From Gemmatimonadaceae bacterium (GTDB lineage Bacteria; Gemmatimonadota; Gemmatimonadetes; Gemmatimonadales; Gemmatimonadaceae), in the NCBI GenBank assembly GCA_036496605.1, contig DASXKV010000018.1, positions 62,001-126,000 on the forward strand: a stretch of 64,000 nucleotides of DNA. The letters are read 5' to 3'. Shown in pieces: positions 4,502 through 62,628 of the stretch. Within the stretch, counting starts at the first letter, position 1, and each line of letters opens with the position of its first letter. Position numbers and translations under genes: made by a program. The notes beneath the pieces were generated by a model. The model was not told the DNA's origin and ran no database searches. It was given only the letters and a program-made list of their open reading frames with translations.

Positions 4502-4639
4502 GGGTGCCTAACGGAAGGAGTCATCTCCGGCAAGAGACACCTTGCTGGCCTGACCGCGTGCAGTAGGCTATTGTTCCCGCGCGCGGTTAGGGCCGCGGTC
4601 GTTCCCACCTCATTGTCCTCCGGCTCCCGGAGATCACGC

Positions 4640-7600
4640 ATGCTCCCACGCTCCGTCAGACGCGGCGCAACGCTGTCTGCGCTCGCGCTCGCTTATCTAT
4701 TCCATCCAACGCCGCTCCACGCCCAGGCGCTCACGGGCACTATCCGCGGCCACGTCACCGACGGCGCGTCCGGTCGCGGCATCCCCGAAGCCCAGGTCAC
4801 CATCACCGGCACGCGCCTCGGCCTGCTGACGAACCAGAGTGGCGACTTCACACTCGCTGCCATTCCCACCGGCTCGCGCACCGTCGAGGTGCGACGCATC
4901 GGCTATCAGCCTGTCGACCGCGTCGTCAACGTCACCGCCGGCGACAATGACGTCGGTGCGATCGCACTCAGTGTCAGCGCCGTAAACCTCAGCGAGGTCG
5001 TCGTCACCGGTACGGGGACCGCGACCGAGAAGCGCGCCGTCGGCACCAGCATCGCTACGGTGGATTCGGCGCTCATCAGCAAGGCCGAAGCGGTCACGGT
5101 CGACCAGGCGATGCAAGGCAAAGTCGCCGGCGCGCAGATCACGCAGAACTCGGGGAGTCCCGGCGGCGGCGGTATCTCCGTTCGCCTCCGCGGCACGAAT
5201 TCGTTCATCTCCGGCTCCGATCCACTCTACATCGTCGACGGCGTGATCATCGACAACGGTTCGGCGCAGCTCGCGGATCTCGGTACTCGCTCGAATCCGC
5301 AGAACCGACTCGCCGACCTGAACCCGGATGACATCGAGCACATCGAGGTCACGCGTGGTGCCGCGGCGGCAGCGCTGTATGGCTCGCGCGCGAACAACGG
5401 CGTCGTGCAGATCTTCACCAAGCGCGGAACTATCGGCAAAGCGCACTATACGGGCACCACCCGTTTTTCCATGGGCGAGTTGCGCGAGCAGCAGCCTTTC
5501 AACTTCTACCCGTTCAACGAAGCGGGACTGCCCGTCCAACGGTACAACTACCAGGACAACATCTTTCATCGGGCGCCCGCGAATGAGCAGAATCTCACCG
5601 TCGAAGGCGGGAACGATCAGACCCGTTACTACATCAGCGGCAATTTCGCCGACGAAGACGGGATCATGCGCTCGACCTCGTCCCGCCGCTCGGGCGCCCG
5701 CATCAACCTCCAGCAGCAACTCGCGTCGAAGCTGATCGGCAACGTCAGCGCCAACTACGTCACGACGCATAACGAGTTACAGGCCTTTGGCGAGCAGAAC
5801 GACTACGGCATCATGGGGTCGCTCTTCTTCGCACCGACGCAGGTCAGTTTTTTCCCGGTGAACGGCATCTACCCGTTGCCTCCCTCGCTGGGGACGAATC
5901 CGCTGCTTGCGATCGACAGGATCCGCAATCCGCAGCAGATCGACCGGTTCATCGGGTCGACGAAGCTGACCTGGACGCCGCTGACGCATGTCCTCTTCGA
6001 CTACACGTTAGGCCTCGATAACACCGGCTTCGAGCAGCGTCAGTTCGTGCCGCGAAATGCCGTCCTCGGTACGGCGCCACTCGCGACCGGACGCTCGCAG
6101 TCGGTGTTTCAGGCGTCGCGGGTACTCAACCAGGACGGCGTCGGTAGCTACACGTGGAACCCGATCGGTCCGTTCGATCTGCGTACGACGGCGGGTTTCA
6201 ACTTCACCGACCAACGCGTTCGCATGACTAGTGCGACCGCGAACGGCCTCGCGCCCGTCGGTGATCTCGTCAGCGCCGGCTCGGTGTTCTCGGCGGCGCA
6301 GACGGACGTCGAGTTGCGCACGTTAGGCTTCTATGGCCAACAGGAGCTCGCCTGGGAGAACAAGCTCTTTCTCACGGGTGGCGTGCGGTACGACGCGTCC
6401 TCGACATTCGCTCCATCCGAACGCTGGCAGGCGTTCCCGAAGTTCTCGGCATCGTACGTCGTCATCGACAACAAACCGGGGGCGCTCAACAATCTTCGCC
6501 TCCGCAGCGCCCTGGGCTACGCCGGTAGCCAGCCGAGCATAACGAACGCCTACTCGCAATTCATCACGTATACGCAACTGCCGTTCGCTGGCCGGCCCGG
6601 CTTCGTCAACAACACGGTTTATGGCAACCCGAACCTCCGCAACGAACGCGCGCGCGAGTGGGAAGTGGGTGCCGACGTCGGATTCCTCGACGGACGCGTC
6701 TCGACCGAAGCGACGTACTACAATCGGCTCGTCTCCGATCTGCTCTTCTTCCGTCCGCTGCCGACGAGCACGGGCTTCTCACAGCAGTTCGCGCCGATTG
6801 GGTCGATGTCGAACAAGGGCATCGAGCTGATGCTCCGCACGCAGAACGTCGACAACCAGAAGGTCAGCTGGGCCTCGACGGTCACGTACGCGCACAACAA
6901 GAACCTCGTCGAGAGCCTGAGCATCCAGGATTTCCAATCGGCGGGCGGCTATCCGAACCGAATCAGAGCCGGATATCCGGCTGGCGTGTTCTATGGCTCG
7001 TACGCCGCTCGCGATTGCATCACCGGACAGCTCCTCGTCGATTCGTTAGGCCGGTATCGCCGCAGCAATCAGACCGTCGACATGGGCGCGACACTCGCTG
7101 CGCGCGAGGCGCTCAGCCACGGCACCTGTAATGATTCACTCAACAAGATCATCGGCGATCCGAATCCGAAATGGACCGGCTCGTTCCTGAACGAGGTGAC
7201 GCTCCTTCGCAAGATTCGCCTCCGCGCGCTGCTCGACGGTGTTTTCGGAAACCAGATCATGAATCTGTCGACGCGCGCGCAGAACGCGGGCATTGCCAGC
7301 AACTCGAAGTCCTACGAGCGTGAGCTGTTGCCGTATGGAGATCCCCGCAAGCTGCCTCCGGGATTCAACGCGCGAACACAGGGCATCTTCGAGTACTGGA
7401 TCGAGGACGGCACGTTCGTGAAGCTGCGCGAGCTCGCGGCGAGCTACACGGTCGATGCACCACCGGTGCGACGCTACTTCAAGGACGGCATCGATCTCAC
7501 ACTGTCGGGTCGCAACCTGTACGTCTGGACGAAGTACAGCGGCTACGATCCCGAGATCAATCTCTTCGGCACCAACGCCGGCGGCATCGGCTCGGTGCAG

Positions 7601-7684
7601 ACGACGGCCGCCGATCGCGGCTTCGACTTCGGTGGCTACCCCATTCCGCGCACGTGGTCGTTGAGCGCGCGGTTCACATTCTGA
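4640..7684 (+). CDS. SusC/RagA-type TonB-dependent outer-membrane receptor
   Basis: The product has 1014 residues from ATG 4640, which is preceded by CGGAGA; the frame is open 23 codons further up. After a signal peptide ending near LHAQA comes a carboxypeptidase-regulatory-like beta-sandwich (TGTIRGHVTDGASGRGIPEA..., about 30-110). A plug domain follows (KVAGAQITQNSGSPGGGGIS...YIVDGVIIDN, about 130-260), including the usual RGAAAAALYGSRANNGVVQI segment. The rest is a large barrel ending in SARFTF. With the adjacent SusD-like lipoprotein it should import oligosaccharides or peptides, energised by TonB; the substrate is not predictable. It contains three CGTTAGGC copies, all read as Leu-Gly with TTA codons. 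It heads the operon with the SusD and DUF4397 genes. Confidence 0.93.
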   Translation: MLPRSVRRGATLSALALAYLFHPTPLHAQALTGTIRGHVTDGASGRGIPEAQVTITGTRLGLLTNQSGDFTLAAIPTGSRTVEVRRIGYQPVDRVVNVTAGDNDVGAIALSVSAVNLSEVVVTGTGTATEKRAVGTSIATVDSALISKAEAVTVDQAMQGKVAGAQITQNSGSPGGGGISVRLRGTNSFISGSDPLYIVDGVIIDNGSAQLADLGTRSNPQNRLADLNPDDIEHIEVTRGAAAAALYGSRANNGVVQIFTKRGTIGKAHYTGTTRFSMGELREQQPFNFYPFNEAGLPVQRYNYQDNIFHRAPANEQNLTVEGGNDQTRYYISGNFADEDGIMRSTSSRRSGARINLQQQLASKLIGNVSANYVTTHNELQAFGEQNDYGIMGSLFFAPTQVSFFPVNGIYPLPPSLGTNPLLAIDRIRNPQQIDRFIGSTKLTWTPLTHVLFDYTLGLDNTGFEQRQFVPRNAVLGTAPLATGRSQSVFQASRVLNQDGVGSYTWNPIGPFDLRTTAGFNFTDQRVRMTSATANGLAPVGDLVSAGSVFSAAQTDVELRTLGFYGQQELAWENKLFLTGGVRYDASSTFAPSERWQAFPKFSASYVVIDNKPGALNNLRLRSALGYAGSQPSITNAYSQFITYTQLPFAGRPGFVNNTVYGNPNLRNERAREWEVGADVGFLDGRVSTEATYYNRLVSDLLFFRPLPTSTGFSQQFAPIGSMSNKGIELMLRTQNVDNQKVSWASTVTYAHNKNLVESLSIQDFQSAGGYPNRIRAGYPAGVFYGSYAARDCITGQLLVDSLGRYRRSNQTVDMGATLAAREALSHGTCNDSLNKIIGDPNPKWTGSFLNEVTLLRKIRLRALLDGVFGNQIMNLSTRAQNAGIASNSKSYERELLPYGDPRKLPPGFNARTQGIFEYWIEDGTFVKLRELAASYTVDAPPVRRYFKDGIDLTLSGRNLYVWTKYSGYDPEINLFGTNAGGIGSVQTTAADRGFDFGGYPIPRTWSLSARFTF

Positions 7685-7700
7685 TCGCGGAGATACTCCC

Positions 7701-9080
7701 ATGCGCATCATGAAGCAGCGCGCGGTGACGATCGCCGCGCTCATCGCGAGCGGGGGCGCGCTCACCGCGTGCACGCTCGACATTCAGAATCCCAATCAGC
7801 CGACGCAGGAGCAGGTGACGACCAGCGTCGACGGTGTGATCGCGCTCGCAACTGGTCTGCAGGGGCGATTTGCCTCTTCGTACGGCAACTTCGCCTACAT
7901 GGCAGGACTTGTGACCGACGAGTTTGCGTCGACGAGCGCAGCCCTGGTCTCGATCTCCGACGCCGAGCAGGGCGCGGTCCCGAGCGGCACGGCGATCGCC
8001 GACAACGTGTTCAACTCGGTGTATCGCACCGTGCGCACGGCGGACGACCTCCTCGCCGGTTCCGTCGCGCTCGCGACGCAGTTCGACCCCGGAACACGGA
8101 GCGGCATCCGCGCCCTGGCGTACGCGCTCAAGGCTGAAGCGTTAGGCGAGGCCTTGCAGTCGTATCAGAAGATCCCGATCGCGACCTACAATATCACCGC
8201 ACCGACGTACGTCGGCCGCTCGGTGGCGCTCCCGTACATCCGCGCATTGATCGATTCGGCGGCCGCCGAGATCGCCGCGACGCCGCCGAGCGCGTTTTTC
8301 AATGCGAACATTCTCACGCCCGGGGTCAGCCTCCCCGACCTGATCCAGCTCTTCCGCGCGCGGTACGCACGGATCGCGAACGACGACGCGACCGCGCTGG
8401 CCGCGGCGAACGCCGTCGCGCGCTCCGGGCCGGCAGCGCTCTCGGTGCTGACGTTCCCGTCGCCGACGGTGAACTTCTACGCCAACGTCACCGGCGGCAC
8501 GAACGGCATCGCCGTGCGGCGTCAATATCGCACGTCGATGGATCCGGCCGATCTCCGCTGGCAGTACTTCGTCACACCCTCCACGACACTCAGCGGCCGC
8601 ATCGGCGCCTTGCTCGATCCCTGGTCTCGCTATTCGAACCCCCAGGCGCCACTGCCCGTCTACATGCCCGACGAGGCGCTTCTCATCAAGGCCGAGGCGC
8701 TGACGCGCCAGAATCAACTCCCCGCCGCGCAAGCCGCGCTCGATTCCGTTCGCACCGATTGCCCCGGCGGCCGCGGTCTGGACGACCCGAAGGCCTGTCT
8801 GCCAGCGTTAGGCAGTCAGCTGACGCAGGCGCAGTTGATCACCGAGATCTATGCGCAGCGACGGTACGAGTTGCTAGGCACGGGAAGCCGGTGGGAGGAC
8901 ACGCGTCGCCTCGGCGCGATCATCGGCCCTGTCGCCTCGCCTAACGTGCCGACGTCGGGTCAGCGCTGCTGGCTGCCGTACGCCGTCGGCGATCGCAACG
9001 CCAACCCGAACGCGACGTTCACTGCTCTCCCCGATCCGACCGAGCCCTCGACGTTTCCCGCCAGCTGCCCGACGACATGA
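7701..9080 (+). CDS. SusD/RagB family nutrient-binding lipoprotein
   Basis: This 459-residue lipoprotein has a signal ending at GGALTAC; the Cys is followed by TLDIQNPNQPTQEQV, the usual start of SusD proteins. Helical repeats carry the C-terminal family signature LITEIYAQRRYELLGTGSRWEDTRRLG. It starts 16 nt after the receptor with GGAG at 7688. A second ATG at 7710 is possible. It would cap the SusC barrel at the cell surface and select ligands. It is somewhat shorter than many SusD proteins but complete at both ends. Confidence 0.9.
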   Translation: MRIMKQRAVTIAALIASGGALTACTLDIQNPNQPTQEQVTTSVDGVIALATGLQGRFASSYGNFAYMAGLVTDEFASTSAALVSISDAEQGAVPSGTAIADNVFNSVYRTVRTADDLLAGSVALATQFDPGTRSGIRALAYALKAEALGEALQSYQKIPIATYNITAPTYVGRSVALPYIRALIDSAAAEIAATPPSAFFNANILTPGVSLPDLIQLFRARYARIANDDATALAAANAVARSGPAALSVLTFPSPTVNFYANVTGGTNGIAVRRQYRTSMDPADLRWQYFVTPSTTLSGRIGALLDPWSRYSNPQAPLPVYMPDEALLIKAEALTRQNQLPAAQAALDSVRTDCPGGRGLDDPKACLPALGSQLTQAQLITEIYAQRRYELLGTGSRWEDTRRLGAIIGPVASPNVPTSGQRCWLPYAVGDRNANPNATFTALPDPTEPSTFPASCPTT

Positions 9081-9880
9081 GCACTCGTATGAATTCATAT
9101 TCGAAGGTCTCCCCGTGGAGACACGTTAGGCACGGCGCACTCGCAATGGCGGTCGCTGCCGCCGCCGCCTGTGGCACGAAGGAGGCGCCGGGCCCGCTCG
9201 AGCCCACGGGCCCAACGGGCCGCATTCGCTTCGTGAACCTGATCACTGATCCGGCGCGCAATCCGGTCAACGCGATCCTCGAGAAGGTCCCCTTCGGTGT
9301 GAACCTGGGCTATACGGGGACAACGCCCTCGAGCCTTCCCGCGCCGAACACGGCCAACTATTCGGCGATTCTCGCGGGCGATCGGTCGCTGGTACTCAAG
9401 CGGACTGCCGACACGACGGTGACGGTCGCGACGTTGACGGTCACGATCACCTCTGGGCAGGACGTCTCCGTGTACGCCACCGGTGGCGCGGGGGGCGGCG
9501 CCGTGTCGTCGTTCGTCACGAAGGATACGAACACGGCGGCGACGTCGACACAAACACGCGTGCGTGTCGTGAACCTCAGTCCGTCCGCCGGTTCGATCGA
9601 CGTGTTCATCACGGCGCCTAACGCCGATCTCTCGACCGCGACGCCCGTCGCTTCGGGTGTGGCGACGCAGAGTGCATCGGCGTATGTCACAACAATCGCG
9701 CCGGGCACCTACCAATTCCGCGCCGTCCCGGCCGGTACTGCCCCCGCCAACCGCTCCGCGAACGTGCTCGTGAACATCGCGAGCGTCGCTCTGGCGGGGA
9801 CGAGTGGGCGCACGTTCGTGGTCGCAGACAAGGCAGCGGGTGGGACGCCATCGACGGCGTTTGTGTTGAGCGACCAATAG
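9077..9880 (+). CDS. DUF4397-domain lipoprotein
   Basis: The product has 267 residues. Its start overlaps the SusD stop (ATGA at 9077), so it is translationally coupled. An N-terminal signal ends at AAAAACG with a candidate lipid-modified Cys. The body has two DUF4397-like repeats: IRFVNLITDPARNPVNAIL and, more clearly, RVRVVNLSPSAGSIDVFIT...NADLSTATPVA. DUF4397 proteins are secreted beta-rich proteins of unknown function. Placement as third gene of a SusCD operon suggests a surface accessory binding protein, but that is inference. The second SusCD pair of the window has no such partner. Confidence 0.8.
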   Translation: MSTRMNSYSKVSPWRHVRHGALAMAVAAAAACGTKEAPGPLEPTGPTGRIRFVNLITDPARNPVNAILEKVPFGVNLGYTGTTPSSLPAPNTANYSAILAGDRSLVLKRTADTTVTVATLTVTITSGQDVSVYATGGAGGGAVSSFVTKDTNTAATSTQTRVRVVNLSPSAGSIDVFITAPNADLSTATPVASGVATQSASAYVTTIAPGTYQFRAVPAGTAPANRSANVLVNIASVALAGTSGRTFVVADKAAGGTPSTAFVLSDQ

Positions 9881-10347: not shown

Positions 10348-13035
10348 ATGCCGCGATCCTTCCGCCTCACCAACAGCAAGCGCGACGTCGCCGAAGAGAT
10401 TGGCTTTCATCTCGAAATGCGGACACGCGAGTTCATCGAGCGCGGGATGTCGCCCGAGGAGGCCAGACGCGCCGCCGCCGCGTGGTTCGGCGACGTCGCC
10501 GCGATCGAAGCCGCGTGCCGCGACGAGCGCGACCACCGCGCCCGCGAGCACGCTCGCCGCGATTGGCTCCAGGGCGTCGGACTCGATCTCAAAGTCGCGC
10601 TGCGCTCGCTCTGGCGGCGGCCGGCCTTCACCGCCGCGGCCACGCTGACCCTCGCGTTAGGCATCGGGGCCGCGGCTGCGGTCTTCGCGATCGTGTCCGG
10701 CGTGCTCCTGCGCCCGCTTCCCTATCGCGATCCGGCCCGCCTCGTCATGCTCTGGTTCGTCGGACCCGACGTTCGCGGTACGCCGAGTCAAATGCCGCTC
10801 TCGGCGCCGACGTATCTCGACATCGTTGAGAGCGTTCCGTCGCTTGGGCCGAGTGCCGCGTTCCGGTCCTGGCCCCTCACCTTGAGCGAGGGAGCGGAGC
10901 CGGAGCAAGTCGCCGGAGTGAGAACGACGCCCGGACTCTTCGCGACACTCGGCATACGACCCGCGATCGGTCGTGACTTCACCGTAGGCGACGCCCAGCC
11001 CGGCGCGCCGCGCGTCGCCATCATCAGCGATGGTCTCTGGCGCCGTCGGTGGGCGGGCGACCCGTCGATCCTTGGCAAATCGGTCACGCTCAGCGGCGAG
11101 CGATGCACCATCATCGGAATCGCTCCGCGTGGCCTCAGCTTCCCGCGTGGTGCCGAGCTTCCCAGTGGTCTTCAATTTCCGACGCGCACGGAGGTATGGA
11201 CCCCACTCACGTTCACCGACAGCGATCTCAAAAACCGCTGGACACTGAATCTGGCCGTCGTCGCTCGGCGGCGAGATGCTGGCTCGACGGCCACGACCGA
11301 CGCGCAGCTCGCTGCTCTCAGCAAGCGGCTCGACGCGCAGTTCGCGGGCGGCACCGGACGCGTCCAGCTGTACGCGCCGTCGCTGGCCGAGCAAGCCGCC
11401 GCGCCGGTGCAGCGCACGCTCCTGGTTCTACTCGGCGCCGTCGCGCTCGTGCTCGTCATTGCCTGCGTCAATGTTACTAGTCTCCTCATCGCGCGGACGA
11501 GCGCGCGAGGGCGCGAGCTGGCCGTTCGCACTGCACTGGGTGCCGGTGCGACGCGGCTTGGGCGGCAGCTGGTAATCGAGAATGTGCTGCTCGCTCTTCT
11601 CGGTGCAGCCGCAGGTGTCGTTCTGGCGGCGTTCGCCACGCGTGTCATGCTCGCGCTCGTGCCAGGTCAGCTCCCACGTGCAGATGACGTCTCCCTGGAT
11701 TGGCGCGTCCTCGTTGCCGCGGCCGTCTGCGCCCTGGCTGCCGGAACGATCTTCGGAATTGCCGCCGCGATCCATGCGCGTGGATCGCCGCTCGCGCCGG
11801 CGCTCACTGGCGGCAGTGCGCGAGCGACCGGGAGCGCGGCACGCACGACGGGCCGCCGAATCCTCGTGGGCGCGCAGATCGCGCTGTCGCTCGTGCTGCT
11901 CGTCGCCGCTGGATTGCTCGGCGCGAGCTTCGTCAGGCTGCAGCACGTCGATCCGGGTTTCCACGCGGAAGGGGCGGTCAGTGCGAACGTCGCGCTGCCG
12001 ATTGCGGGCTCGTTCAATCCGCAACGGGACGGTCCCGGCTGGTCGGCTTTCTTCACGACGCTCACCGACCGCGCCGCGGCGCTGCCTAACGTCGTCGCCG
12101 CCGGCGCAGTCAGTGTGTTGCCACTCACCGCTGATCCGGAATCGGCAGGCTTTACGATCGAGGGTCGGCCTGCACCCGCCCCGGGACAGGCGCCCGAGAC
12201 GCAATACTTCGTGACGGCGGGCGATTACTTCCGCGCGATGGGAATACGGCTCCAATCGGGCCGCACGTTCAACGCCAGCGACCGCGCCGAGACGCCGCGC
12301 GTGATCGTCGTGAGTCGCGAGCTCGAGCGCCGCCTCTTTCCTGGCGATCGCGCTATCGGTCACCGGATTCATTGCGGATGCGACTTCACGCCGGGGGCGC
12401 GAGAGATCATCGGCGTGGTCGACGATGTCCGCGCGTCTTCACTCGACGAGGCGCCGACGCCTGCGGTGTATCTCCCGGAAGCGCAGATGACGTATCCGCA
12501 GCTCGTACTCGTTATGCGAACGAAGGGAGATCCCATCGCTGTGCTTCCGTCGCTGCGTCGCGAGCTCCGCGCGCTCCGACCGGACGTCGCGCTCGAGCTG
12601 GTGCGTACCCTCCGCGACGTCTTCAGCGCCTCGCTCGCGAGGCAGCGCTTCAGCCTCGTCCTGATTGGCGCGTTCGCGCTCGCAGCGCTCGCGCTTGCGG
12701 TCGTCGGTCTCTATGGCGTGATCGCGCTCAGCGTTGGCGAGCGTCGGCGCGAGATTGGCGTTCGCCTTGCCCTGGGCGCTCGTCCGGCGACGGTGCTTGC
12801 GCTCGTGCTTGGCGAAGGCGCGCGCATCGCCGTCGTGGGAATCGTCGCGGGCCTGCTCGTCTCATCCCTCGCGACGCGGCTACTGCGAGGAATGTTGTAC
12901 GACGTCACGGCCTCTGACGTCACGATCTACGCTGCCGCGGCGGTGCTGGTCGCAGTGATTGCGCTCGTGTCGACGTGGGCGCCCGCGCGCGCGGCAACCA
13001 AAGTGGATCCGGTGGTAGCGTTGAGATCGGAGTGA
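10348..13035 (+). CDS. ADOP-family MacB/FtsX-like permease
   Basis: An 895-residue membrane protein starting at ATG 10348, preceded by AGGAGG at 10333-10338. Residues 1-70 form the prefix domain found in PadR-linked members (KRDVAEEIGFHLEMRTREFIERGMSPEEARRAA). Two MacB periplasmic-core plus FtsX units follow. The first TM is in FTAAATLTLALGIGAAAAVFAIVSGVLL, with a TM cluster near 440-560 (LLGAVALVLVIACVNVTSLLIART) and the last at the C-terminus. No ATPase gene is nearby, as is usual for these duplicated orphan permeases. The transported substrate is unknown. The start codon lies within CGTTATGC, and two CGTTAGGC/GCCTAACG copies lie inside. Confidence 0.9.
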   Translation: MPRSFRLTNSKRDVAEEIGFHLEMRTREFIERGMSPEEARRAAAAWFGDVAAIEAACRDERDHRAREHARRDWLQGVGLDLKVALRSLWRRPAFTAAATLTLALGIGAAAAVFAIVSGVLLRPLPYRDPARLVMLWFVGPDVRGTPSQMPLSAPTYLDIVESVPSLGPSAAFRSWPLTLSEGAEPEQVAGVRTTPGLFATLGIRPAIGRDFTVGDAQPGAPRVAIISDGLWRRRWAGDPSILGKSVTLSGERCTIIGIAPRGLSFPRGAELPSGLQFPTRTEVWTPLTFTDSDLKNRWTLNLAVVARRRDAGSTATTDAQLAALSKRLDAQFAGGTGRVQLYAPSLAEQAAAPVQRTLLVLLGAVALVLVIACVNVTSLLIARTSARGRELAVRTALGAGATRLGRQLVIENVLLALLGAAAGVVLAAFATRVMLALVPGQLPRADDVSLDWRVLVAAAVCALAAGTIFGIAAAIHARGSPLAPALTGGSARATGSAARTTGRRILVGAQIALSLVLLVAAGLLGASFVRLQHVDPGFHAEGAVSANVALPIAGSFNPQRDGPGWSAFFTTLTDRAAALPNVVAAGAVSVLPLTADPESAGFTIEGRPAPAPGQAPETQYFVTAGDYFRAMGIRLQSGRTFNASDRAETPRVIVVSRELERRLFPGDRAIGHRIHCGCDFTPGAREIIGVVDDVRASSLDEAPTPAVYLPEAQMTYPQLVLVMRTKGDPIAVLPSLRRELRALRPDVALELVRTLRDVFSASLARQRFSLVLIGAFALAALALAVVGLYGVIALSVGERRREIGVRLALGARPATVLALVLGEGARIAVVGIVAGLLVSSLATRLLRGMLYDVTASDVTIYAAAAVLVAVIALVSTWAPARAATKVDPVVALRSE

Positions 13036-13064: not shown

Positions 13065-14999
13065 TCATTCGAGAAGGCTCCGCACAACTTGCAGCAGGAC
13101 CTTCGGCAAATGATCAGGGCGAGGCAGGATCTCGTATCCCGCCGGCCCAAAGATCCTTTTCAGATAGGCCGAGTCCTCGTGATCAACCGTTAGGCAAAAC
13201 GGAAACACGTCGCGCGCGCGCGCCTCGTTGATCGCCTGGCGCGAGTCCTCGATTCCGTACTGGCCCTGATACGTGTCGACGTCGTTCGGTTTGCCGTCGG
13301 AGAGGATCAGGAGCAGCCGATGCCCGGCGCTCTGGGCGTCGAGGAGCGCCGTTGCATGACGGATGGCGGCGCCGAGGCGGGTATTCGCGTCGGGCGCGAG
13401 CGCGGCGATTCGGCTGCGCACTGTCGGCCCGTTACGCTCCGCGAACCCCTTGATCGTGCGTAACTGCACGCTCCGCGCACCTTTTCCGGAGAACGCGAGC
13501 ATCGCATAACGATCGCCCAGCGCGTCGAGCGCCTCGGCCGCGATGAGGAGCGCTATTTTTTCGACGTCGATGACCTGCAGCGTCTTCGTCACCAGCGTAT
13601 CGGTCGATCCACTGACATCGACGAGGAGCATGATCGCGAGCTCGCGGCGCGCCGGACGAACAGCGACGTACAGCCGATCGTCGATGGTATGGCCGGTGCG
13701 AGCGTCGACGAGCGCCCGGACGCACGCAGCGAGGTCGAGCTCATCGCCTTCGCGCTGACGCGGCACGCGAGTTCGCCGGGCACGGAGCCGCTCGAAGCGC
13801 TCGCGCACGTGCCTAACGAGCGCGGCGTGCTCCTTGAGCGTGGCCGTCGCCCAATCCGGAGACGCCTCGCGCGCCGGACGCGCGCGAACGATCACGCTGT
13901 CCCGCCGGTATTGGTGGCTCGCCGCGTCCCACTCCGGATACACGACGTCGTCGCGCGTGAGCGGCTCGATCGCGTCAGGGCCAGCGGCGGACGCGCCTGT
14001 TCCAGAGAGCGCTTCGTCGTCCGGCTGCGGCGAGCTGCCGATGTCGTCGTCCTCGGCGATTCCCCGCTGCTGCTCGACCACTCCCGCTTGCGGCGCGGGC
14101 TGCTCGGGCTCGACCCCACTCTCGGCGGGGACCGGCCTCGGTCGCCCCAGCTGCTCTGCCCCTGCAAGCTCGACGAGATTGAGCAGCCGGTTGTTCATGA
14201 GTGAGCTCTCACTCGATCCTCCGGGCGCCAACACTCCGGGACCCGGTGGCAGGACGCGTCCCCAGATGCCCACGGGCGGCACGCCACGATAGCGCTCGTT
14301 GACGATTCGCAATCGCGCCGCGGTCTCACGAGCCCAGGCGGCAGATTCCTCCGGCGAGGCGGAGCTCAACGCTGGCGGTGGCGCCGTCGGGTCGGCAGCG
14401 AGCAGTTGCCTAACGAAATGCTCCACGTCGCGCTCGGCTCCGGCCAGTGCCTCGAGCACTGGCCGTCGCGCGAGGGCGTCGGCGCGCGCCGCGACCAGGG
14501 CCGGAACCAGGTTGCGTACATCGTGCGCGATCGCCGCGTCGATCGTCGCGCTCTCGCGGAGCAGGAACAGGTCGCGTTCGAGTGAGTCGTTCAACCGCGC
14601 CGCGGCGGTCGCGGTGCCCCGTACGACACGCTCGGCTTGCTCGATGGCGATCAACCGATAGCGCGCGATCGCGACGTCGCGTCCAGACGCTGCGTCCATC
14701 GCCGACGGCAAGCGTAGCGACTCGCCGTCGCTGGCGGGCACACTCTCCGGCTCTTTGAATGGGCTCACCGAGCGCCACGCTCGCGTCAGCCAACCGACGC
14801 GTCGGCGCTCGGGAACGGCGATCGGTATGTGCTTGCCGTACATCGCGGCAAGGAGTAACTCGAGTCGCCGGCGAACGGTGTCCAGCTCGACGATCGGTCG
14901 CGCGCGGCGCCACGGCAGTGTCGGCAGGGGGATGGGCAATCGCGCAGCAAGCCTTGCCGCCGCGCGTCGCGCGCGAATCAGCCGGCGCCGTGATCGCAT
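13065..14999 (-). CDS. VWA-domain protein of the NorD/CbbO/CoxE class
   Basis: This 644-residue protein has a C-terminal von Willebrand A domain beginning about residue 454, with the metal-binding motif DVSGS at 461-465, later T in DANTRLGAAIRHA, and D in LILSDGKPND. The long N-terminal part is Arg/Ala-rich and helical, with an acidic linker. NorD, CbbO and CoxE act with MoxR-type AAA+ ATPases as chaperones that remodel or load metals into large enzymes. The partner ATPase lies 46 nt upstream. No nitric-oxide reductase or RuBisCO genes occur in the window, so a CoxE-like role for the molybdenum hydroxylase next door is more attractive. That is inference. Confidence 0.82.
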   Translation of the reverse strand: MRSRRRLIRARRAAARLAARLPIPLPTLPWRRARPIVELDTVRRRLELLLAAMYGKHIPIAVPERRRVGWLTRAWRSVSPFKEPESVPASDGESLRLPSAMDAASGRDVAIARYRLIAIEQAERVVRGTATAAARLNDSLERDLFLLRESATIDAAIAHDVRNLVPALVAARADALARRPVLEALAGAERDVEHFVRQLLAADPTAPPPALSSASPEESAAWARETAARLRIVNERYRGVPPVGIWGRVLPPGPGVLAPGGSSESSLMNNRLLNLVELAGAEQLGRPRPVPAESGVEPEQPAPQAGVVEQQRGIAEDDDIGSSPQPDDEALSGTGASAAGPDAIEPLTRDDVVYPEWDAASHQYRRDSVIVRARPAREASPDWATATLKEHAALVRHVRERFERLRARRTRVPRQREGDELDLAACVRALVDARTGHTIDDRLYVAVRPARRELAIMLLVDVSGSTDTLVTKTLQVIDVEKIALLIAAEALDALGDRYAMLAFSGKGARSVQLRTIKGFAERNGPTVRSRIAALAPDANTRLGAAIRHATALLDAQSAGHRLLLILSDGKPNDVDTYQGQYGIEDSRQAINEARARDVFPFCLTVDHEDSAYLKRIFGPAGYEILPRPDHLPKVLLQVVRSLLE

Positions 15000-15045: not shown

Positions 15046-15882
15046 TCATATCGTCGCCGCTACCAGGTCATCTATTGCGGCGAGCAAGTCAGGATCGTCT
15101 GTGAGCGGCGCGACGAGTGCCGAGCGACACGCCTGCGCCGCTGGAATTCCGCCGGCGATGAGACGCGCCGTCGCGACGAGAGGCCGCGTCCCCGGGCCTT
15201 CGGTGAGACCTTGATCGCGCAGACGGCGCACCTTCCGCGCGAGGTCCACGAGAGCGGTCGCCGTTGCCCGCTTCACGCCGCTCTCATGCGCCACGATCTC
15301 ACTCTCGGTCGCCGGTGGCGGAAAGTCGAACTCCAACGCGACGAAGCGCTGCCGTGTGCTCGGCTTGAGATCTTTCACGGCGTGCTGATATCCGGGATTG
15401 TACGAGATCACGAGCTGGAATCCCGGCGCGGCTTCCAGCAACTCTCCGGTCTTCTCGATCGGCAAGATGCGCCGGTCGTCAGCGAGTGGGTGCATGACGA
15501 CGACCGTGTCCTGACGCGCTTCGACGACCTCGTCGAGATAGCAGATCGCGCCGAGCCTAACGGCCGTCGTGAGCGGTCCGTCGATCCAGATTGTCTCGCC
15601 GCCTCGGATGAGGTAGCGTCCGGTGAGATCGGCGGCGGAGAGGTCGTCGTGGCAGGCGATCGTGACGAGCGGTCGTCCGAGCACGTGCGCCATGTGCTCG
15701 ATGAATCGCGTTTTGCCGCATCCCGTCGGCCCCTTGAGCATCACCGGCAGGCCGCGCTTATGGCAGGCGGTGAAGGTCGGGATCTCGTCGTGAATCGGGA
15801 CGTAGTACGGCACCTCCGCACCCGGCCAGCGCACGCCGTTTTCCAGGGAGTCGGAGTGAGAGATTGAACGGGTCAGGGTCAT
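15046..15882 (-). CDS. MoxR-type AAA+ ATPase (NorQ/CbbQ/CoxD class)
   Basis: A 278-residue ATPase with Walker A GPTGCGKT at 51-58 and Walker B AICYLDEV at 112-119. It has the CbbQ/NorQ lid sequence SYNPGYQHAVKDLKPSTRQRF and a sensor region further on. The family forms hexamers that work with a VWA partner, encoded immediately downstream, to activate metalloenzymes. It follows the molybdenum hydroxylase gene by 61 nt in the same direction and is probably co-transcribed. The full length and intact nucleotide site argue for an active enzyme. The target enzyme is inferred from position only. Confidence 0.85.
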   Translation of the reverse strand: MTLTRSISHSDSLENGVRWPGAEVPYYVPIHDEIPTFTACHKRGLPVMLKGPTGCGKTRFIEHMAHVLGRPLVTIACHDDLSAADLTGRYLIRGGETIWIDGPLTTAVRLGAICYLDEVVEARQDTVVVMHPLADDRRILPIEKTGELLEAAPGFQLVISYNPGYQHAVKDLKPSTRQRFVALEFDFPPPATESEIVAHESGVKRATATALVDLARKVRRLRDQGLTEGPGTRPLVATARLIAGGIPAAQACRSALVAPLTDDPDLLAAIDDLVAATI

Positions 15883-52756: not shown

Positions 52757-53229
52757 CCCGTAATCCCCCGGAACATCGGGTGGTTCAGGAACGACTGCAG
52801 CCAACCACTCGGCGACGTCCCGTGCAATACCGTTGGCCCCGCGTGTGACCTCGGCGCCGAATCCGGCTCGGCGGTAATCACGAGCAGGAACTTGTTGAGC
52901 GTCACGTGTCCAACCGTGGTCGTACCATTTGCGATCGGGCCGAGTCGATCCCAACGCTGCAGGTCGGGGGTGGCCGCCCACGCGACGTACGCTCGGAATG
53001 CGCCGAGAGACGACGGTGACGGTAGCCCCGAGACTGCGACCTGTACATCGTACTGAGCGCGTCCGTCTGCCGTCACCGAGATTCCGAACGGTGACTGCGC
53101 GAAGACGAGCCGCGCCGACCCGCTCGCCCTCGGCGCCTTGGGGGTCGAGAACAGCGGAATGTCGTACGGTCCCGCCGCGATCAGCAGCGGGACCGCGAAC
53201 ATCAGGCTCAGCTGCCTAACGCCGATCAC
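52753..53229 (-). CDS. Exported protein of unknown function in the multicopper oxidase operon
   Basis: A 158-residue protein with a GTG start at 53229 overlapping the LVIVD stop, and its own stop overlapping the oxidase start. A signal is followed by a beta-rich domain (RLVFAQSPFGISVTADGRAQYDVQVAVSGLP, then AYVAWAATPDLQRWDRLGPIANG) resembling an Ig/cupredoxin sandwich but without the His-Cys-Met copper set. I cannot name the family. A CGTTAGGC copy lies within its first codons and uses a rare AGG arginine. Confidence 0.72.
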   Translation of the reverse strand: MIGVRQLSLMFAVPLLIAAGPYDIPLFSTPKAPRASGSARLVFAQSPFGISVTADGRAQYDVQVAVSGLPSPSSLGAFRAYVAWAATPDLQRWDRLGPIANGTTTVGHVTLNKFLLVITAEPDSAPRSHAGPTVLHGTSPSGWLQSFLNHPMFRGITG

Positions 53230-56505: not shown

Positions 56506-59051
56506 GCTCGGCGCCGAGTGCGAGAGCGGGACCCTGGCGGGTTCTCGCTCGCGCGACATGCCTTCTTCTTCTCGTCACGCCCGCAGTTTCGCGTGCGGAG
56601 CCGGCGTGCGTCGCGCACGCCGGTGCGGCGATGGAGTCGCATCGCTGGCCAGCGCCGCTCGATCGCATGGTGACGTTGCACAATCGCGACCTCGCGTTGC
56701 GCGACGCGCTCGATCGCCTTGCGAGCGCCGCGAGGCTTCGCCTCTCGTACTCTTCCGAGCTGCTCACGCTCGATCGCCGTGTTTGCGTCTCCTACGATTC
56801 CGTCGCGGCAGGCTCGGTGCTGGCGGACCTCCTCGATGGAAGCGCCGTCGCGCCGGTCGTCGCCGGCGACGATCAGGTGGTACTCGCACCGGTCGCTGCT
56901 CCCCATAAGAGTGAGCAGCGCTCCGAGCAGAGCGTCAAGGTCCTCGATCGCGTCGTTGTCACTGGCAGCGCGATCGGCGTGCCGCAGCGTGGGCTCTCAT
57001 CCGCCGTGACGGTGATCGACCGCTCCGAGCTCGCGTCGCAGCGCGGCGGGACCATTTCGCAGACGCTAAACAGTGCGGTTCCGGGACTCTGGCTCTGGGA
57101 CGAGGGACCATCCAGCCTGCTCGCCCAGTACGGCAGTCTGCGCGGCGTGAGCTCTTTCCAGGTGAGCTATCCGAAGATCTACATCGACGGAATTCAGGTC
57201 GCGAATCCGCTGCTACTCACGGAGCTCAGCCCAGACGCCGTCGAGCGCATCGAGGTCATTCGCGGGCCGCAGGGCGCCGCGCTCTACGGGGCCGATGCGA
57301 TCGGTGGTGTGATCAACATCATCATGCGCCACGATAGCGGCGATGGCGAGGACGCCGGCGCGCAACTGCGCACGAGCGCCGGCGCCACGCACAGCGCCTA
57401 CGCGGCGCATCCCGTGCTCGTGCAGGAACACACGCTCGATTTACGTGGCGGGAGTGACCTCAGATCGTCGGCGCTCTCGATCACGTTAGGCAGCGTTGGT
57501 TCCTACGTGCCCGACGCGCAGAGCCGGGAAGCGCGCGCCGATGGCGGCTTCCGAATCATTGGCTCGCGGACCGTACTGACCGGTACGGCGCGCCTGTACG
57601 CCAAGGACGCAGGCGCTGGCGCGAGCCCGCTCATCGCCGCGCCATCGATGCTGCAGTTCAATCGGTCGGCGATGGAGCAGGAACCCTGGCGTCTGAACGG
57701 ACAGCACGACTTCGGCGGTCCCCCGCGTGGAATGACGCGAGTCGCCTCGACCAGCTCGCAATCGCTGCGCGAGTATACGTTAGGCACGACGGCGACATTC
57801 AACAGTGGCGGCAGATGGACGCAGGCCGTTACGGCCGGTCTCGACGGCTACACGTTGTCAGGCGACGCCTCGGCCGCGCTGACGCCAAATCCGTCGGCAG
57901 TCGATTCGGCGTTGCGCGCGGCCCGTGGCAGCGCCAACCGCGCCACGCTCCGCGCGAGCAGTGTCGCGCGTTTTGGATCGAGCGCAGGTACCGCCGCGAC
58001 GACAACGTTCGCAGCCGAGTACTCCTCGCTCCAACAGATCACGCCCGACGACGGCTGGGCGCCCTCAGGCGAGCAGGCGAGCGATTACACGACGTGGCAG
58101 AGCGACGCCGGCGTCGTCGCACAGATCGACGCTTCGTGGCAAAACGCGGTGTTCGCGACGAGCGGCCTGCGTTTGGAGCGAACGCTCGGGCTCGCGGCGA
58201 CCAACGGACTTCTAACCTTGCCGATGATCGGCGGCGCTGCTGTTCATGACTTCGGCCCAGTAACGACGAAGTTGCGTGCGTCGTACGGGAAGGGAATACG
58301 TCCCGCTGGCACCGCGCTTCGTGCTTCGTGGCTCGCTCCTCGGTCGTTGTCGCAACGCAGCCTCGCGCCGGAGGAGCAATCCGGCCTCGAGGTCGGAGTC
58401 GACGCGTTCATCGGACGCACCTTTGCGCTTCACCTGACGCGCTTCGATCAGTATGCGTACAACCTGATCCAGCCTGTGGTCATCGCGTCGTCGCTGACCC
58501 CGTTGCCGAGCGATGAAAGCTCGATGCGTCTGATGTACGCGCTACAGAATGTCGGTGAGATCACCAATCGCGGCTGGGAGCTCGAGAGTGCCATCGCCAG
58601 GGGACCATTGTCGCTGTCAGGCACGGTGTCGCTCGTCGATAGCCGCGTGCGTCAGCTCGCACTCGGTTACAGAGGCGACCTGCAACCGGGCGATCGCATG
58701 TTGGGTGTCCCAGCCCTCACGACCGGCCTAACGAGCACCTGGACCGCTCGTCGCTGGTCGGCGTCGCTTACGGCGACGCGGGCGTCCGATTGGTTGAACT
58801 ACGATGGGCTCGCGCTCGCGTCGGCATTCTCCACCGCGGACCACCCGATTGTTGGTCAGCTGCTGCGCGGCTACTGGCGGTCATACGGCGGCGTGACGCG
58901 TATCGATGCCTGGGCATCGCGACAGCTCTTCGGCGGCCTGACGGGCATCCTAGCGGCGCGGAATGTTCTCGACGTCCAGCGCGGTGAGCCGGACAACCTT
59001 ACGGTGGTGCCGGGCCGGACGCTCACCGCGGGCGTGCAAGCGAAATTTTAG
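56502..59051 (+). CDS. TonB-dependent transducer (receptor with STN signalling domain)
   Basis: An 849-residue receptor. After the signal comes a secretin/TonB N-terminal (STN) domain, about residues 48-125 (LHNRDLALRDALDRLASAARLRLSYSSELL). The plug includes RVVVTGSAIGVPQRGLSSAVTVIDRSEL and the segment IYIDGIQVANP...RIEVIRGPQGAALYGADAIGGVINII. A barrel ends in TAGVQAKF. The STN domain marks it as a signal-sending receptor working through the FecR protein encoded just upstream. It is smaller than the SusC receptors and has no SusD partner. Its ligand could be an iron chelate, vitamin or glycan; the sequence does not decide. Confidence 0.92.
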   Translation: MSSAPSARAGPWRVLARATCLLLLVTPAVSRAEPACVAHAGAAMESHRWPAPLDRMVTLHNRDLALRDALDRLASAARLRLSYSSELLTLDRRVCVSYDSVAAGSVLADLLDGSAVAPVVAGDDQVVLAPVAAPHKSEQRSEQSVKVLDRVVVTGSAIGVPQRGLSSAVTVIDRSELASQRGGTISQTLNSAVPGLWLWDEGPSSLLAQYGSLRGVSSFQVSYPKIYIDGIQVANPLLLTELSPDAVERIEVIRGPQGAALYGADAIGGVINIIMRHDSGDGEDAGAQLRTSAGATHSAYAAHPVLVQEHTLDLRGGSDLRSSALSITLGSVGSYVPDAQSREARADGGFRIIGSRTVLTGTARLYAKDAGAGASPLIAAPSMLQFNRSAMEQEPWRLNGQHDFGGPPRGMTRVASTSSQSLREYTLGTTATFNSGGRWTQAVTAGLDGYTLSGDASAALTPNPSAVDSALRAARGSANRATLRASSVARFGSSAGTAATTTFAAEYSSLQQITPDDGWAPSGEQASDYTTWQSDAGVVAQIDASWQNAVFATSGLRLERTLGLAATNGLLTLPMIGGAAVHDFGPVTTKLRASYGKGIRPAGTALRASWLAPRSLSQRSLAPEEQSGLEVGVDAFIGRTFALHLTRFDQYAYNLIQPVVIASSLTPLPSDESSMRLMYALQNVGEITNRGWELESAIARGPLSLSGTVSLVDSRVRQLALGYRGDLQPGDRMLGVPALTTGLTSTWTARRWSASLTATRASDWLNYDGLALASAFSTADHPIVGQLLRGYWRSYGGVTRIDAWASRQLFGGLTGILAARNVLDVQRGEPDNLTVVPGRTLTAGVQAKF

Positions 59052-60050: not shown

Positions 60051-60268
60051 AAGTGTGGTTCTCCGATCAGCGGTGCCCGCGTTGGCCCGGTTGACGACCA
60101 AAAAAACGCACGCTGCGAAAGAGCCCGCGCGGGGTCGCAGTCCATGCGTGGTCCGTTTCCTGTTGGGCAGGGTGAATAGCCACGGCGCACGAGAGGCGCC
60201 GTGACAATTCTCACACTCGCTGATTTGTTAATGAGTCTTAGCGATCGCCGCTTTACGGTTTCGCGATT

Positions 60269-60895: not shown

Positions 60896-60949
60896 GTCCG
60901 GCCTCCGATGGGTGGGAAACGGGGAACGGCAAGACGCACACCGCAGAGG

Positions 60950-61046
60950 GACTAGGGGCTCGGGGCTAGGGAATAGGGGCTGGCGCTAGGGTAAAGAGAC
61001 GAGGGCTATGGCTATAACCCTCGTCCCCATCCCAGCCCCTTTCTCT
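60950..61046. repeat. GGGGCTAG/GAGGGCTA iterated words with nested hairpins
   Basis: GGACTAGGGGCTCGGGGCTA-type words (60950-60990) are followed by nested inverse pairs. GACGAGGG (60998-61005) pairs with CCCTCGTC (61018-61025), and outside it GGGGCTGG (60976-60983) pairs with CCAGCCCC (61032-61039). Unlike the other such blocks it lies between divergent genes. It ends directly at the promoter of the next gene. Confidence 0.6.
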
Positions 61047-61075
61047 TGACACCACTTTGGTACCAGTACTAGAGT
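61046..61075 (+). promoter_or_regulatory. Promoter of the unknown/MerR-like/clpP operon
   Basis: TTGACA (61046-61051), 18 nt, then TAGAGT (61070-61075), 28 nt before the first start codon of the operon. GGTACC lies in the spacer. Confidence 0.5.
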
Positions 61076-61103
61076 TCAATCAGGTCGCATTCGGAGCCAC
61101 TCT

Positions 61104-61892
61104 ATGCGTATCGGGGATTTTGCTGTCGAAGTCGTATCGCGCGGAAAAGGCATCGGCGTTCGCGAGACGGGATCGGGCCACGTGCTCGCTCGGCCGGGGC
61201 AGGTATATGCCCTCCGGCTTCGTAATTTCGGCCCTCTTCGCTGCGTCGCGGATGTCAGTGTCGACGGACGCACGGTGACGGCGGGAGGGCTCGTCATCGA
61301 CGCGTATTGCACGGAGGAGCTCGAGCGTCCGATCACGCCTGACGAGGACGGGCGATTCACCGTGGTCGCGGAGGGCGACGAGCGCGTGTTTGGACCCGAT
61401 GGTGGCAGAGACAATCCCGACCTCGGGTTGATCGAGGTGCGGTTTCGACGTGAGCTGCCTGGCGGGCCGGAGCGCACGCGCCCGCTGCCACCGACCCTCG
61501 GCACTGCCCTTGGCGATCCGGCCCGGCCGTTCCCGGCTCATCCCTCTCGATTCGAACCCGGGACGCTCCGGGGGTTCGGTTCGAGCGACGCTGCGCGGGC
61601 ACCTAACGGCAACGTGAGACGCATGCTGCTCGGGCGCGAATCCATCATGCGTGAGCCGGTTGAGCCCTCTTCGTTGCCTAACGAACCAGCGTGGGAGGAC
61701 GTCGAGCGCGCCGCGGGTACTGGACTCACTGGACACTCGAGCCAGCGCTTCACTCCGACGCAGCTCGGACCGCTCGAGCACGAAGCCACGGTCCTTCAGC
61801 TCCGCCTCGTGATTGCAACCGCGGAAGCGATCGACGCCGCGCGCTCGCCGGTGGAGTCAATCGCGCCCGTTCGTCCAGCGGCACGGCCTTAG
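61104..61892 (+). CDS. Unknown cytoplasmic protein, first gene of the clpP operon
   Basis: A 262-residue protein without signal or membrane segments. Residues 1-115 form a beta-rich domain (GQVYALRLRNFGPLRCVADVSVDGRTV, then ERPITPDEDGRFTVVAEGDERVFG and DLGLIEVRF). It resembles a widespread but functionally undefined family I cannot name. A Pro-rich linker precedes a second conserved stretch GTGLTGHSSQRFTPTQLGPLEHEATVLQLRLV. The next gene starts 4 nt after its stop. Two or more copies or near-copies of the 8-mer word lie in it. Confidence 0.68.
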   Translation: MRIGDFAVEVVSRGKGIGVRETGSGHVLARPGQVYALRLRNFGPLRCVADVSVDGRTVTAGGLVIDAYCTEELERPITPDEDGRFTVVAEGDERVFGPDGGRDNPDLGLIEVRFRRELPGGPERTRPLPPTLGTALGDPARPFPAHPSRFEPGTLRGFGSSDAARAPNGNVRRMLLGRESIMREPVEPSSLPNEPAWEDVERAAGTGLTGHSSQRFTPTQLGPLEHEATVLQLRLVIATAEAIDAARSPVESIAPVRPAARP

Positions 61893-61896
61893 ACTG

Positions 61897-62628
61897 ATGT
61901 CCGGCGATCGGTCACCCGTGCGCGCGCAGCGCCGTGCGCCGCGACGCCTCGACGCCGGATTGGCGTCGCGAAGCGCGGCGCGAGCCGAGGTCGAGCGTGA
62001 GCTCGACGAGTGGCGTGCGCGCGCGGTGCCGGATCCGTCGATGCCGCTCGAGGCGGACGACGTCGCGCGGCTCGTCGGTGATTGCCTAGTTTCCCTCGGA
62101 CTCGACGAGGCAGCGGCGTCCAACTTCAGTGTGAACACGGTGCACTTCTACCGCCGGAAGGAGATCCTCGACGCTCCGGAGGGACGCACCTCGGCCGCCC
62201 GTTACGCACTCCGTCACCTCTGGCAAGCGGTTGGCGCGCGCCTCGCGGGACAGCTCGGGCTCCTCACGCTCGCCGAGGCACGCGACGCGATGAGTGGCCG
62301 AAGCGAGACCGTCCTTGTCGGATTCGTTGCCGAGCGAGTGCTCGATGCCCGCGCCCGTCAAGCCGTACGGCGATCGGCGACACCCGTCGTCATGGCGCGC
62401 CCGCTCGCGCCGGTCGCGGCGGCGGCGAGCCTAACGACGGCGCGTCCCCTTCCTGGCATCACCAAACGCAGCGCCGGCGCCGAAGCGATTGTCATCGCGC
62501 TTCCGGGCAATGCCTGGTGCGTGGTCCCGGCCGTTCACGGTGCCCATCGGTCCGCCGCGGCGGCGCGTGCGCTCGGTCGTGCTCTCACCCACGCGTTGCT
62601 TGTCTCCGATGACCCAACAGACTCCTGA
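61897..62628 (+). CDS. MerR-like winged-helix protein
   Basis: The product has 243 residues from ATG 61897, close behind the upstream stop. The central region ([53 protein letters not shown], about 65-118) has the Y-R-R and R-Y-x-L-R-H-L features of MerR-type DNA-binding domains. The usual very N-terminal placement is displaced by a 60-residue leader. The C-terminal half has a predicted alpha/beta piece ([20 protein letters not shown]) that could sense a signal. No metal-binding Cys set is present. It overlaps the clpP start by 20 bp and may control the operon. Confidence 0.65.

Follow-up and report, generated by a model that had tools for sequence, protein, structure and literature searches.

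An abundant octamer in the window

The DNA analysed here is a 64,000-nt stretch (the window) from a Gemmatimonadaceae bacterium, corresponding to positions 62,001-126,000 of the forward strand of contig DASXKV010000018.1 (assembly GCA_036496605.1). It contains 50 exact copies of the 8-mer CGTTAGGC (hereafter the word), which reads GCCTAACG on the opposite strand (Table 1). All 50 coordinates listed in the original prediction were recovered by exact matching, together with the balanced orientation it described (26 copies on the plus strand and 24 on the minus strand). Dinucleotide shuffling of the window (n = 100) gave an expectation of 1.26 copies, the highest shuffle reaching 5. When synonymous codons were shuffled within each gene, keeping the proteins fixed, 1.6 copies were expected in the window genes, where 48 are found.

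Table 1. Positions of the word in the window and its state at compared sites in other genomes.
Feature	Position	Strand	Remarks
CGTTAGGC word	4506..4513	-	exact match
CGTTAGGC word	6006..6013	+	exact match
CGTTAGGC word	6321..6328	+	exact match
CGTTAGGC word	7044..7051	+	exact match
CGTTAGGC word	8140..8147	+	exact match
CGTTAGGC word	8806..8813	+	exact match
CGTTAGGC word	8939..8946	-	exact match
CGTTAGGC word	9124..9131	+	exact match
CGTTAGGC word	9616..9623	-	exact match
CGTTAGGC word	10655..10662	+	exact match
CGTTAGGC word	12084..12091	-	exact match
CGTTAGGC word	13188..13195	+	exact match
CGTTAGGC word	13811..13818	-	exact match
CGTTAGGC word	14408..14415	-	exact match
CGTTAGGC word	15555..15562	-	exact match
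CGTTAGGC word	15967..15974	-	exact match
CGTTAGGC word	16984..16991	+	exact match
CGTTAGGC word	17350..17357	+	exact match
CGTTAGGC word	18022..18029	+	exact match
CGTTAGGC word	19371..19378	-	exact match
CGTTAGGC word	21131..21138	-	exact match
CGTTAGGC word	21354..21361	+	exact match
CGTTAGGC word	21618..21625	-	exact match
CGTTAGGC word	23639..23646	-	exact match
CGTTAGGC word	27581..27588	+	exact match
CGTTAGGC word	31075..31082	-	exact match
CGTTAGGC word	33441..33448	+	exact match
CGTTAGGC word	33741..33748	-	exact match
CGTTAGGC word	34700..34707	+	exact match; altered in word-poor G144
CGTTAGGC word	35101..35108	-	exact match
CGTTAGGC word	36195..36202	-	exact match; kept in congener G390; altered in G360 and G144
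CGTTAGGC word	37533..37540	-	exact match; kept in G390 and G360; altered in word-poor G144
CGTTAGGC word	38801..38808	-	exact match; kept in G390 and G360; altered in word-poor G144
CGTTAGGC word	41554..41561	+	exact match; kept in G390
CGTTAGGC word	42537..42544	-	exact match
CGTTAGGC word	44126..44133	+	exact match
CGTTAGGC word	44582..44589	+	exact match; kept in G360
CGTTAGGC word	46116..46123	+	exact match; kept in G390
CGTTAGGC word	47512..47519	+	exact match; kept in G360
CGTTAGGC word	48502..48509	+	exact match; altered in G360
CGTTAGGC word	49817..49824	+	exact match; kept in G390
CGTTAGGC word	50471..50478	+	exact match; kept in G360
CGTTAGGC word	50712..50719	+	exact match; kept in G360 and G390
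CGTTAGGC word	52718..52725	-	exact match; kept in G360
CGTTAGGC word	53214..53221	-	exact match
CGTTAGGC word	57484..57491	+	exact match
CGTTAGGC word	57778..57785	+	exact match
CGTTAGGC word	58726..58733	-	exact match
CGTTAGGC word	61676..61683	-	exact match
CGTTAGGC word	62429..62436	-	exact match

Enrichment across the genome and independence from protein sequence

The whole host genome (5.97 Mb in 70 contigs) carries 3,411 copies of the word, 1,661 on one strand and 1,750 on the other, against 211 and 197 copies of a control, CGTTAGGC reversed without complementing. The enrichment is therefore genome-wide, and confinement to the window, which the original prediction had named as counter-evidence, was not seen. 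A count of 8-mers against a codon-aware null had also been proposed; by z-score against synonymous-codon shuffles, CGTTAGGC was the top 8-mer in the host genome and in G080, and ranked first or second in G156, G102, G090, G200 and G244. In 544 kb of the host, 281 copies lie in genes, where 11.4 +/- 3.0 were expected after shuffling synonymous codons per gene. With proteins held fixed in both comparisons (48 against 1.6 and 281 against 11.4), the claim that protein sequence offers no explanation holds. On the basis of this null and of the codon choice in each context, neither protein sequence nor codon usage is accepted as the origin of the enrichment.

All four coding frames previously described are used in the host, although unequally (TTA-GGC 99, CCT-AAC 64, CTA-ACG 60 and GTT-AGG 58), and TAA stop codons also carry the word, written GCC-TAA-CG. 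In the best-sampled word-rich genomes, Leu between NCG and GGC is encoded by TTA in 38% (host), 37% (G080) and 61% (G156 and G200) of cases, compared with 0.2-1.9% elsewhere. In the antisense frame, CCT makes up 67%/50% of the Pro codons in nnG-Pro-AAC-G, against 18%/7%. Ten word-poor genomes showed no TTA in 130 NCG-Leu-GGC contexts and no CCT in 26 nnG-Pro-AAC-G contexts. The capture of both sense TTA and antisense CCT shows that the word acts at the level of double-stranded DNA. Genes carry it even where this calls for rare codons: in G080, 80% of the sampled TTA codons fall within it. Pro-Asn and [ASPT]-Leu-Gly peptides are over-used in word-rich proteomes.

In the host, the word is denser in genes (0.58 per kb) than in intergenic DNA (0.29 per kb). 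Its density ranges from about 0.3 to 0.9 per kb across gene bodies, and from 0.57 to 0.97 per kb (about 0.5-1 per kb) in the richest genomes. It is not concentrated in housekeeping genes, several of which are spanned by a 13.8-kb stretch of contig C1 that lacks it. A repeat family with shared flanks was also considered and rejected, the flanks giving only codon periodicity, a purine (R) after the word and some T before it.

Conserved positions, spacing and orientation

Conservation in orthologues, another check proposed at the outset, was found: word positions were shared with congeners in 18 of 26 site comparisons, with 17-20% expected. G390 keeps the word at 7 of 8 sites and G360 at 11 of 18, against 17% and 20%, respectively, for 8-mers of equal composition, while word-poor G144 keeps it at none of the six sites compared. 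Moreover, the words repel each other, spacing below about 300 bp being avoided. The occupancy of NCG-Leu-GGC sites was 0.14-0.34 when another word lay closer than 300 bp, compared with 0.38-0.48 at distances of 300-2,500 bp (pooled p = 1e-5), and only 5 of 302 neighbouring words were within 150 bp, two of them inverted. Strong replichore polarity, which would have pointed to a segregation or recombination signal, was not observed under any origin position (at most 55.6% co-oriented across 400 kb sampled from the G080 chromosome).

Distribution and variants among Gemmatimonadota

A survey of 395 Gemmatimonadota genomes showed enrichment of the word in 26, with sister lineages remaining at chance level. 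One of the 26, a genome matching Gemmatirosa kalamazoonensis KBS708, has 4,469 copies. When word-rich and word-poor genomes were placed on an RpoB tree, the word was seen to be gained and lost between sister genera, and loss was also seen inside one genus (3 copies in G229 vs 3,754 in G200). No substitute word was found in ten word-poor genomes (40 kb each).

The consensus has a strict GTTAGG core, preceded by C more often than by T or G and followed by C, then preferably by A or G. Tolerated variants are lineage-specific around this fixed core: the host also favours CGTTAGGT and CGTTATGC, G080 accepts changes at the first base only, and G200 also uses CGTTAGGA, CGTTAGTC and CGTTGGGC.

Competence genes and search for a receptor

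Of the competence genes suggested as a check, comEC is present in 46 of 52 genomes, including the host, the genomes without it being mostly fragmented assemblies, and prepilins with a class-III signal occur in all genomes tested. The machinery for natural transformation is thus represented, as judged from these genes. However, comEC is as common in word-poor relatives as in word-rich genomes, so that the word cannot be predicted from the machinery by itself, and all matches to the ComP_DUS family fell under its cut-off. In a limited comparison, none of the prepilin groups or minor-pilin operons tracked the word; the ComP family, N_methyl prepilins and the FimT/PilV/PilW/PilX operon gave no clean pattern, and the C-terminus of a FimT-like protein failed as a correlate on G200.

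Comparison with known uptake sequences

According to PMC12616744, Neisseriaceae and Pasteurellaceae are the only groups in which DNA uptake is known to be sequence-specific. The Neisseriaceae DUS (GCCGTCTGAA family) occurs in many copies, in both orientations and with dialects, and generally favours neither orientation along the genome (PMC3630211, PMC2346458, PMC12616744). The word resembles it in its hundreds to thousands of copies, many genic and in both orientations, and in its lineage variants, which recall species dialects around a fixed core. It differs in being an unrelated 8-mer from another phylum, the DUS being a 10-12-mer, and in its patchy occurrence, whereas DUS follows whole subclades. 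DUS and USS also often form inverted pairs acting as terminators, a common though not a defining trait, unlike the word, for which frequent inverted pairs were not found (2 inverted within 150 bp among 302 neighbours).

The Pasteurellaceae USS (AAGTGCGGT) is similar in copy density and in preferring one reading-frame orientation (PMC2346458). Its molecular-drive-like accumulation at weakly constrained places (PMC1939737) has a counterpart in the build-up of the word, but the two sequences are unrelated, the phylum is another one, and no AT-rich flanking tracts were seen around the word. Temperate Pasteurellaceae phages carry USS (PMC6776037), and the word likewise accumulates in a resident phage-like element, the high-copy element of G080, with 12 copies in a 15-kb repeat unit (0.8 per kb; cf. 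PMC3974934), close to the 0.55 per kb of the chromosome sample. A search for viral contigs related to this element gave one weak match only. The receptor of DUS is ComP, and ComN/PpdA is proposed for USS.

Alternative explanations

Chi sites and KOPS, like the word, are asymmetric 8-mers with many copies, but they are replication-polar, and in species where it is well studied Chi favours the leading strand. The orientation bias flipping between replichores that marks them is absent from the word. A Chi-like or repair word, read by an intracellular recombination or repair enzyme and either favouring self DNA or shielding it from degradation, would account for the conserved positions, and the spacing avoidance would also fit one action per fragment. 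Given the lack of polarity, and since gain and loss between sister genera would be unusual for a core repair enzyme, this explanation is unlikely. A word acting in recombination after transformation would nevertheless be hard to tell from an uptake signal by sequence. Binding by a nucleoid-organising or global regulatory protein agrees with conserved positions on both strands and both replichores; its probability is slight in view of the spread through gene bodies with a lower density in intergenic DNA, the avoidance of close spacing and the loss within one genus.

The cyanobacterial HIP1 (GCGATCGC) is also very frequent and patchy within its phylum, and methyltransferases have been linked to HIP words (PMC4390886). 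A word made or kept by DNA modification or repair, as proposed for HIP1, would suit the mostly synonymous placement seen here. HIP words are palindromic, however, and CGTTAGGC is not; the SMRT motifs of G. kalamazoonensis KBS708 comprise only RGATCY, ATGCAC and CCAGN7TCA, none of which fits (PMC3974934). This argues against m6A methylation of the word and against its being simply a methylation site, as the original prediction had allowed, although SMRT probably misses m5C; a HIP1-like origin is considered improbable. A donor-side signal, marking DNA for packaging or export by a gene transfer agent, phage-like element or secretion, would produce the same biased spread. The words in the G080 element speak for it, but their density is near that of the chromosome and the word was not linked to any gene for packaging or export, which leaves it little probability.

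As a heptamer, GTTAGGC has the sequence of an R box of integron attC sites (GTTRRRY). Most of the integron-integrase loci checked, word-rich or word-poor, hold at least one copy, at some of them GTTAGGC sits in an attC-like inverted pair, and same-direction arrays account for the residual copies in word-poor genomes. The dispersed words, in contrast, are single, with unrelated flanks, at synonymous sites in conserved genes, and only 2 of 302 neighbours form inverted pairs within 150 bp; integron integrases are common to word-rich and word-poor genomes. The lack of paired attC structure and cassette arrays excludes an attC origin for the dispersed words, and attC remnants are a highly improbable general explanation.

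A candidate self-DNA uptake sequence

Taken together, these features suggest that CGTTAGGC is a candidate self-DNA uptake sequence accumulating by biased transformation (probability about 0.6). This remains the best explanation rather than a proved one: the original uptake reading agrees with a word that is genome-wide, independent of protein sequence, active on both strands, non-polar, genic, conserved in position, spaced apart, patchy with variants and of DUS/USS-like density, while comEC is non-specific and no receptor was found. The word would serve as a double-stranded DNA recognition word by which cells in natural transformation preferentially take up self DNA, bound by a cell-surface receptor that, by analogy, may be a DNA-binding minor type IV pilin; we infer both uptake as the selecting step and a pilin as the reader. 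DNA bearing the word would enter the cell and recombine more frequently. The word would therefore build up wherever the encoded protein allows, for the most part through synonymous changes (NCG-TTA-GGC, G-CCT-AAC-G). If one word per few hundred bases suffices, a second one nearby would bring no gain.

More speculatively, a third, independently evolved uptake code in Gemmatimonadota could have been gained or lost several times between sister genera, each time with the same core. Since this core equals the attC box GTTAGGC, integron cassettes would also be preferred by the receptor, and transformation would be linked to the capture of cassettes, a scenario that we regard as an outside possibility.

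Even if the selecting step is not uptake, a word capturing 37-61% of Leu codons in context needs explaining. If the uptake reading is true, the many positive and negative sister lineages would offer material for a comparative search for the receptor, and adding the word would give a practical handle for the transformation of a group that has few cultured representatives. The Gemmatimonadota word would then be a third, independent case beside the Neisseriaceae DUS and the Pasteurellaceae USS, in a distant phylum whose members abound in soil, and would mean that self-recognition in transformation evolves repeatedly.

Abundance of the word and its reach into codons

The original prediction placed 50 copies of a non-palindromic 8-mer (the word) in the window, and all coordinates proved exact, with 26 copies on the plus strand and 24 on the minus strand, compared to 1.26 expected from dinucleotide shuffles. 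The word is not restricted to the window: the whole genome (G000, 5.97 Mb in 70 contigs, with the window at C18:62001-126000) contains 3,411 copies (1,661/1,750 by strand), while the word reversed without complementing, used as a control, occurs 408 times. The protein families found, including TonB-dependent receptors and MacB/FtsX-type ABC permeases, assign this genome to Gemmatimonadota, as does the closest contig bearing a name, which comes from a soil Gemmatimonas metagenome assembly.

It had also been claimed that protein sequence does not explain the word. This was confirmed by shuffling synonymous codons inside each gene, as called by a simple codon-usage script, in 544 kb of G000 (about one tenth of the genome) and 460 kb of G080, a second word-rich genome. 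With proteins fixed, 281 words were found versus 11.4 ± 3.0 expected in the G000 sample, 219 versus 7.7 in the G080 sample and 48 versus 1.6 in the window genes, and the word was the most over-represented 8-mer in both samples. Leucine between NCG and GGC is encoded by TTA in 99/257 cases in G000, 129/348 in G080, and 19/31 and 25/41 in the word-rich G156 and G200, against 0.2-1.9% of all other leucine codons in these four genomes and 0/130 in the same context of ten word-poor relatives. Within the G080 sample, 129 of 162 TTA codons fall in the word. In the antisense frame, nnG-Pro-AAC-G uses CCT in 64/96 (G000) and 58/117 (G080) cases, versus 18% and 7% of prolines elsewhere, and even stop codons are affected, TAA occupying 7/9 GCC-stop-CG contexts in G000. 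Word-capable peptides are over-used in word-rich proteomes, among them Pro-Asn (1.38-1.44 times expectation, versus 0.88 in word-poor ones). Therefore, the pressure for the word works on double-stranded DNA and extends into protein sequence.

Motif, spacing and placement

Codon-aware one-mismatch counts defined a strict core, GTTAGG, preceded preferably by C (T and G being tolerated) and followed by C, then preferably A or G. The tolerated variants differ by lineage: G000 also favours CGTTAGGT (12.6-fold) and CGTTATGC (4.3-fold), G200 has CGTTAGGA, CGTTAGTC and CGTTGGGC, and G080 varies at the first base only. No common flanks were seen around words apart from codon periodicity.

Gaps shorter than 200 bp are too few (13 versus 33 expected in G000, 13 versus 25 in G080). 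Codon opportunity cannot be the sole cause of this wide spacing, as NCG-Leu-GGC occupancy is 0.38-0.48 at 300-2,500 bp from another word but drops to 0.14-0.34 at distances of up to 300 bp (pooled Fisher p = 1e-5). A second nearby word thus seems to add no benefit, which fits the DNA fragment as the unit of selection. Words are denser in genes than between them (0.58 versus 0.29 per kb, G000) and denser in GC-rich genes, which are probably less constrained. GC content declines steadily away from the nearest word, from 0.666 to 0.621 in G000 and from 0.752 to 0.704 in G080, mainly at codon positions 1 and 2; weak constraint or a recombination-linked GC bias may underlie this gradient. Individual features are listed below.

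Coordinates of individual features in the window and in the surveyed genomes
Feature	Location	Observation
tRNA-Val (tac), ARAGORN call	window, 58732-58813	within long reading frame 56502-59051; first bases overlapped by one word; probably a false positive
Word desert	G000:C1:58451-72252	13.8 kb, zero words; housekeeping genes (release factor 1, thymidylate kinase, most of SMC; named by reading)
PilA-like major pilin gene	G000, contigs C22, C33, C51, C52, C58	five or more copies, nearly identical
Same-direction CGTTAGGC runs	G138:C5, G114:C2, G002:C43, G255:C14	roughly 0.5-1 kb apart; word-poor genomes of a neighbouring family; look like integron cassette arrays
L004, high-copy element of Gemmatirosa	G080:C1, 20,952 bp; 298-3964 repeated at 15295	probably a 15.0-kb circle plus overlap; 12 words in each unit; integrase-like and tape-measure-like proteins encoded on the element (by reading)

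Conservation and distribution

Positions in orthologues, suggested as a check, are indeed conserved. At about 77% DNA identity, two congeners of G000 keep 11/18 (G360) and 7/8 (G390) words at aligned sites, versus 20% and 17% of same-composition 8-mers, while the word-poor sister G144 keeps 0/6. Contig L001, from a metagenome-assembled genome (MAG), was excluded as an independent comparison, its states being identical to those of G360.

Of 395 Gemmatimonadota genomes, several of which are fragmented MAGs, 26 carry more than 150 copies. They span nine genera of Gemmatimonadaceae, with a maximum of 4,469 in G080, and extend into neighbouring families, where a few genera are included, mostly at lower counts. 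The majority of the remaining genomes stay below 40 copies, which is about the chance level. Sister lineages can differ in the trait: G200 (3,754 copies) is word-rich and G229 (3 copies) word-poor, although both are placed in one genus. A quick tree of a single gene, RpoB, needs 8 trait changes, at least 5 of them forced by well-supported branches. No replacement word was found in 40 kb each of ten word-poor genomes. Across the word-rich genera of Gemmatimonadaceae, RpoB words recur at a small set of common [PA]-Leu-Gly positions; RpoB of 14 word-poor genomes has none. Either shared opportunity or shared ancestry could account for these positions.

Possible origin of the word

Chi and KOPS are replication-polar. 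In contrast, co-orientation of the word with replication in the G080 chromosome sample is at most 55.6% over every possible origin position, so the predicted lack of such polarity held. The heptamer GTTAGGC is an R box of integron attC sites, which explains why word-poor genomes still have residual copies close to integrases, but does not explain the dispersed single words; integrases are widespread across Gemmatimonadota, in word-rich and word-poor genomes alike. As for methylation, the replicons of G080 (5,311,527, 1,106,233, 1,040,503 and 20,952 bp) match those of Gemmatirosa kalamazoonensis KBS708, with which we infer it to be identical. The published SMRT methylome of KBS708 lists only RGATCY, ATGCAC and CCAGN7TCA (PMC3974934). 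Thus, the word is absent from the reported m6A sites, although it could carry m5C.

Of the competence genes proposed for inspection, ComEC occurs in 46 of 52 genomes checked, irrespective of word content, and prepilins were seen in every genome. All matches to ComP_DUS, the family of the Neisseriaceae uptake receptor, scored below the cut-off, and neither the prepilin clusters of eight genomes nor a FimT/PilV/PilW/PilX-type operon tracked the word. The phage-like element of G080 carries words at chromosome-like density, which parallels the accumulation of the uptake signal USS in Pasteurellaceae temperate phages (PMC6776037).

Taken together, the presence on both strands, a spacing as of one word per DNA fragment, mostly synonymous placement limited by coding tolerance, species variants built around one core, patchy gain and loss in Gemmatimonadota and the phage-like element fit biased DNA uptake. 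From these sequence features, we consider it fairly probable (roughly 0.6) that the word is a DNA-uptake sequence; most of the remaining weight goes to words serving recombination or repair, words driven by DNA modification, and packaging on the donor side.
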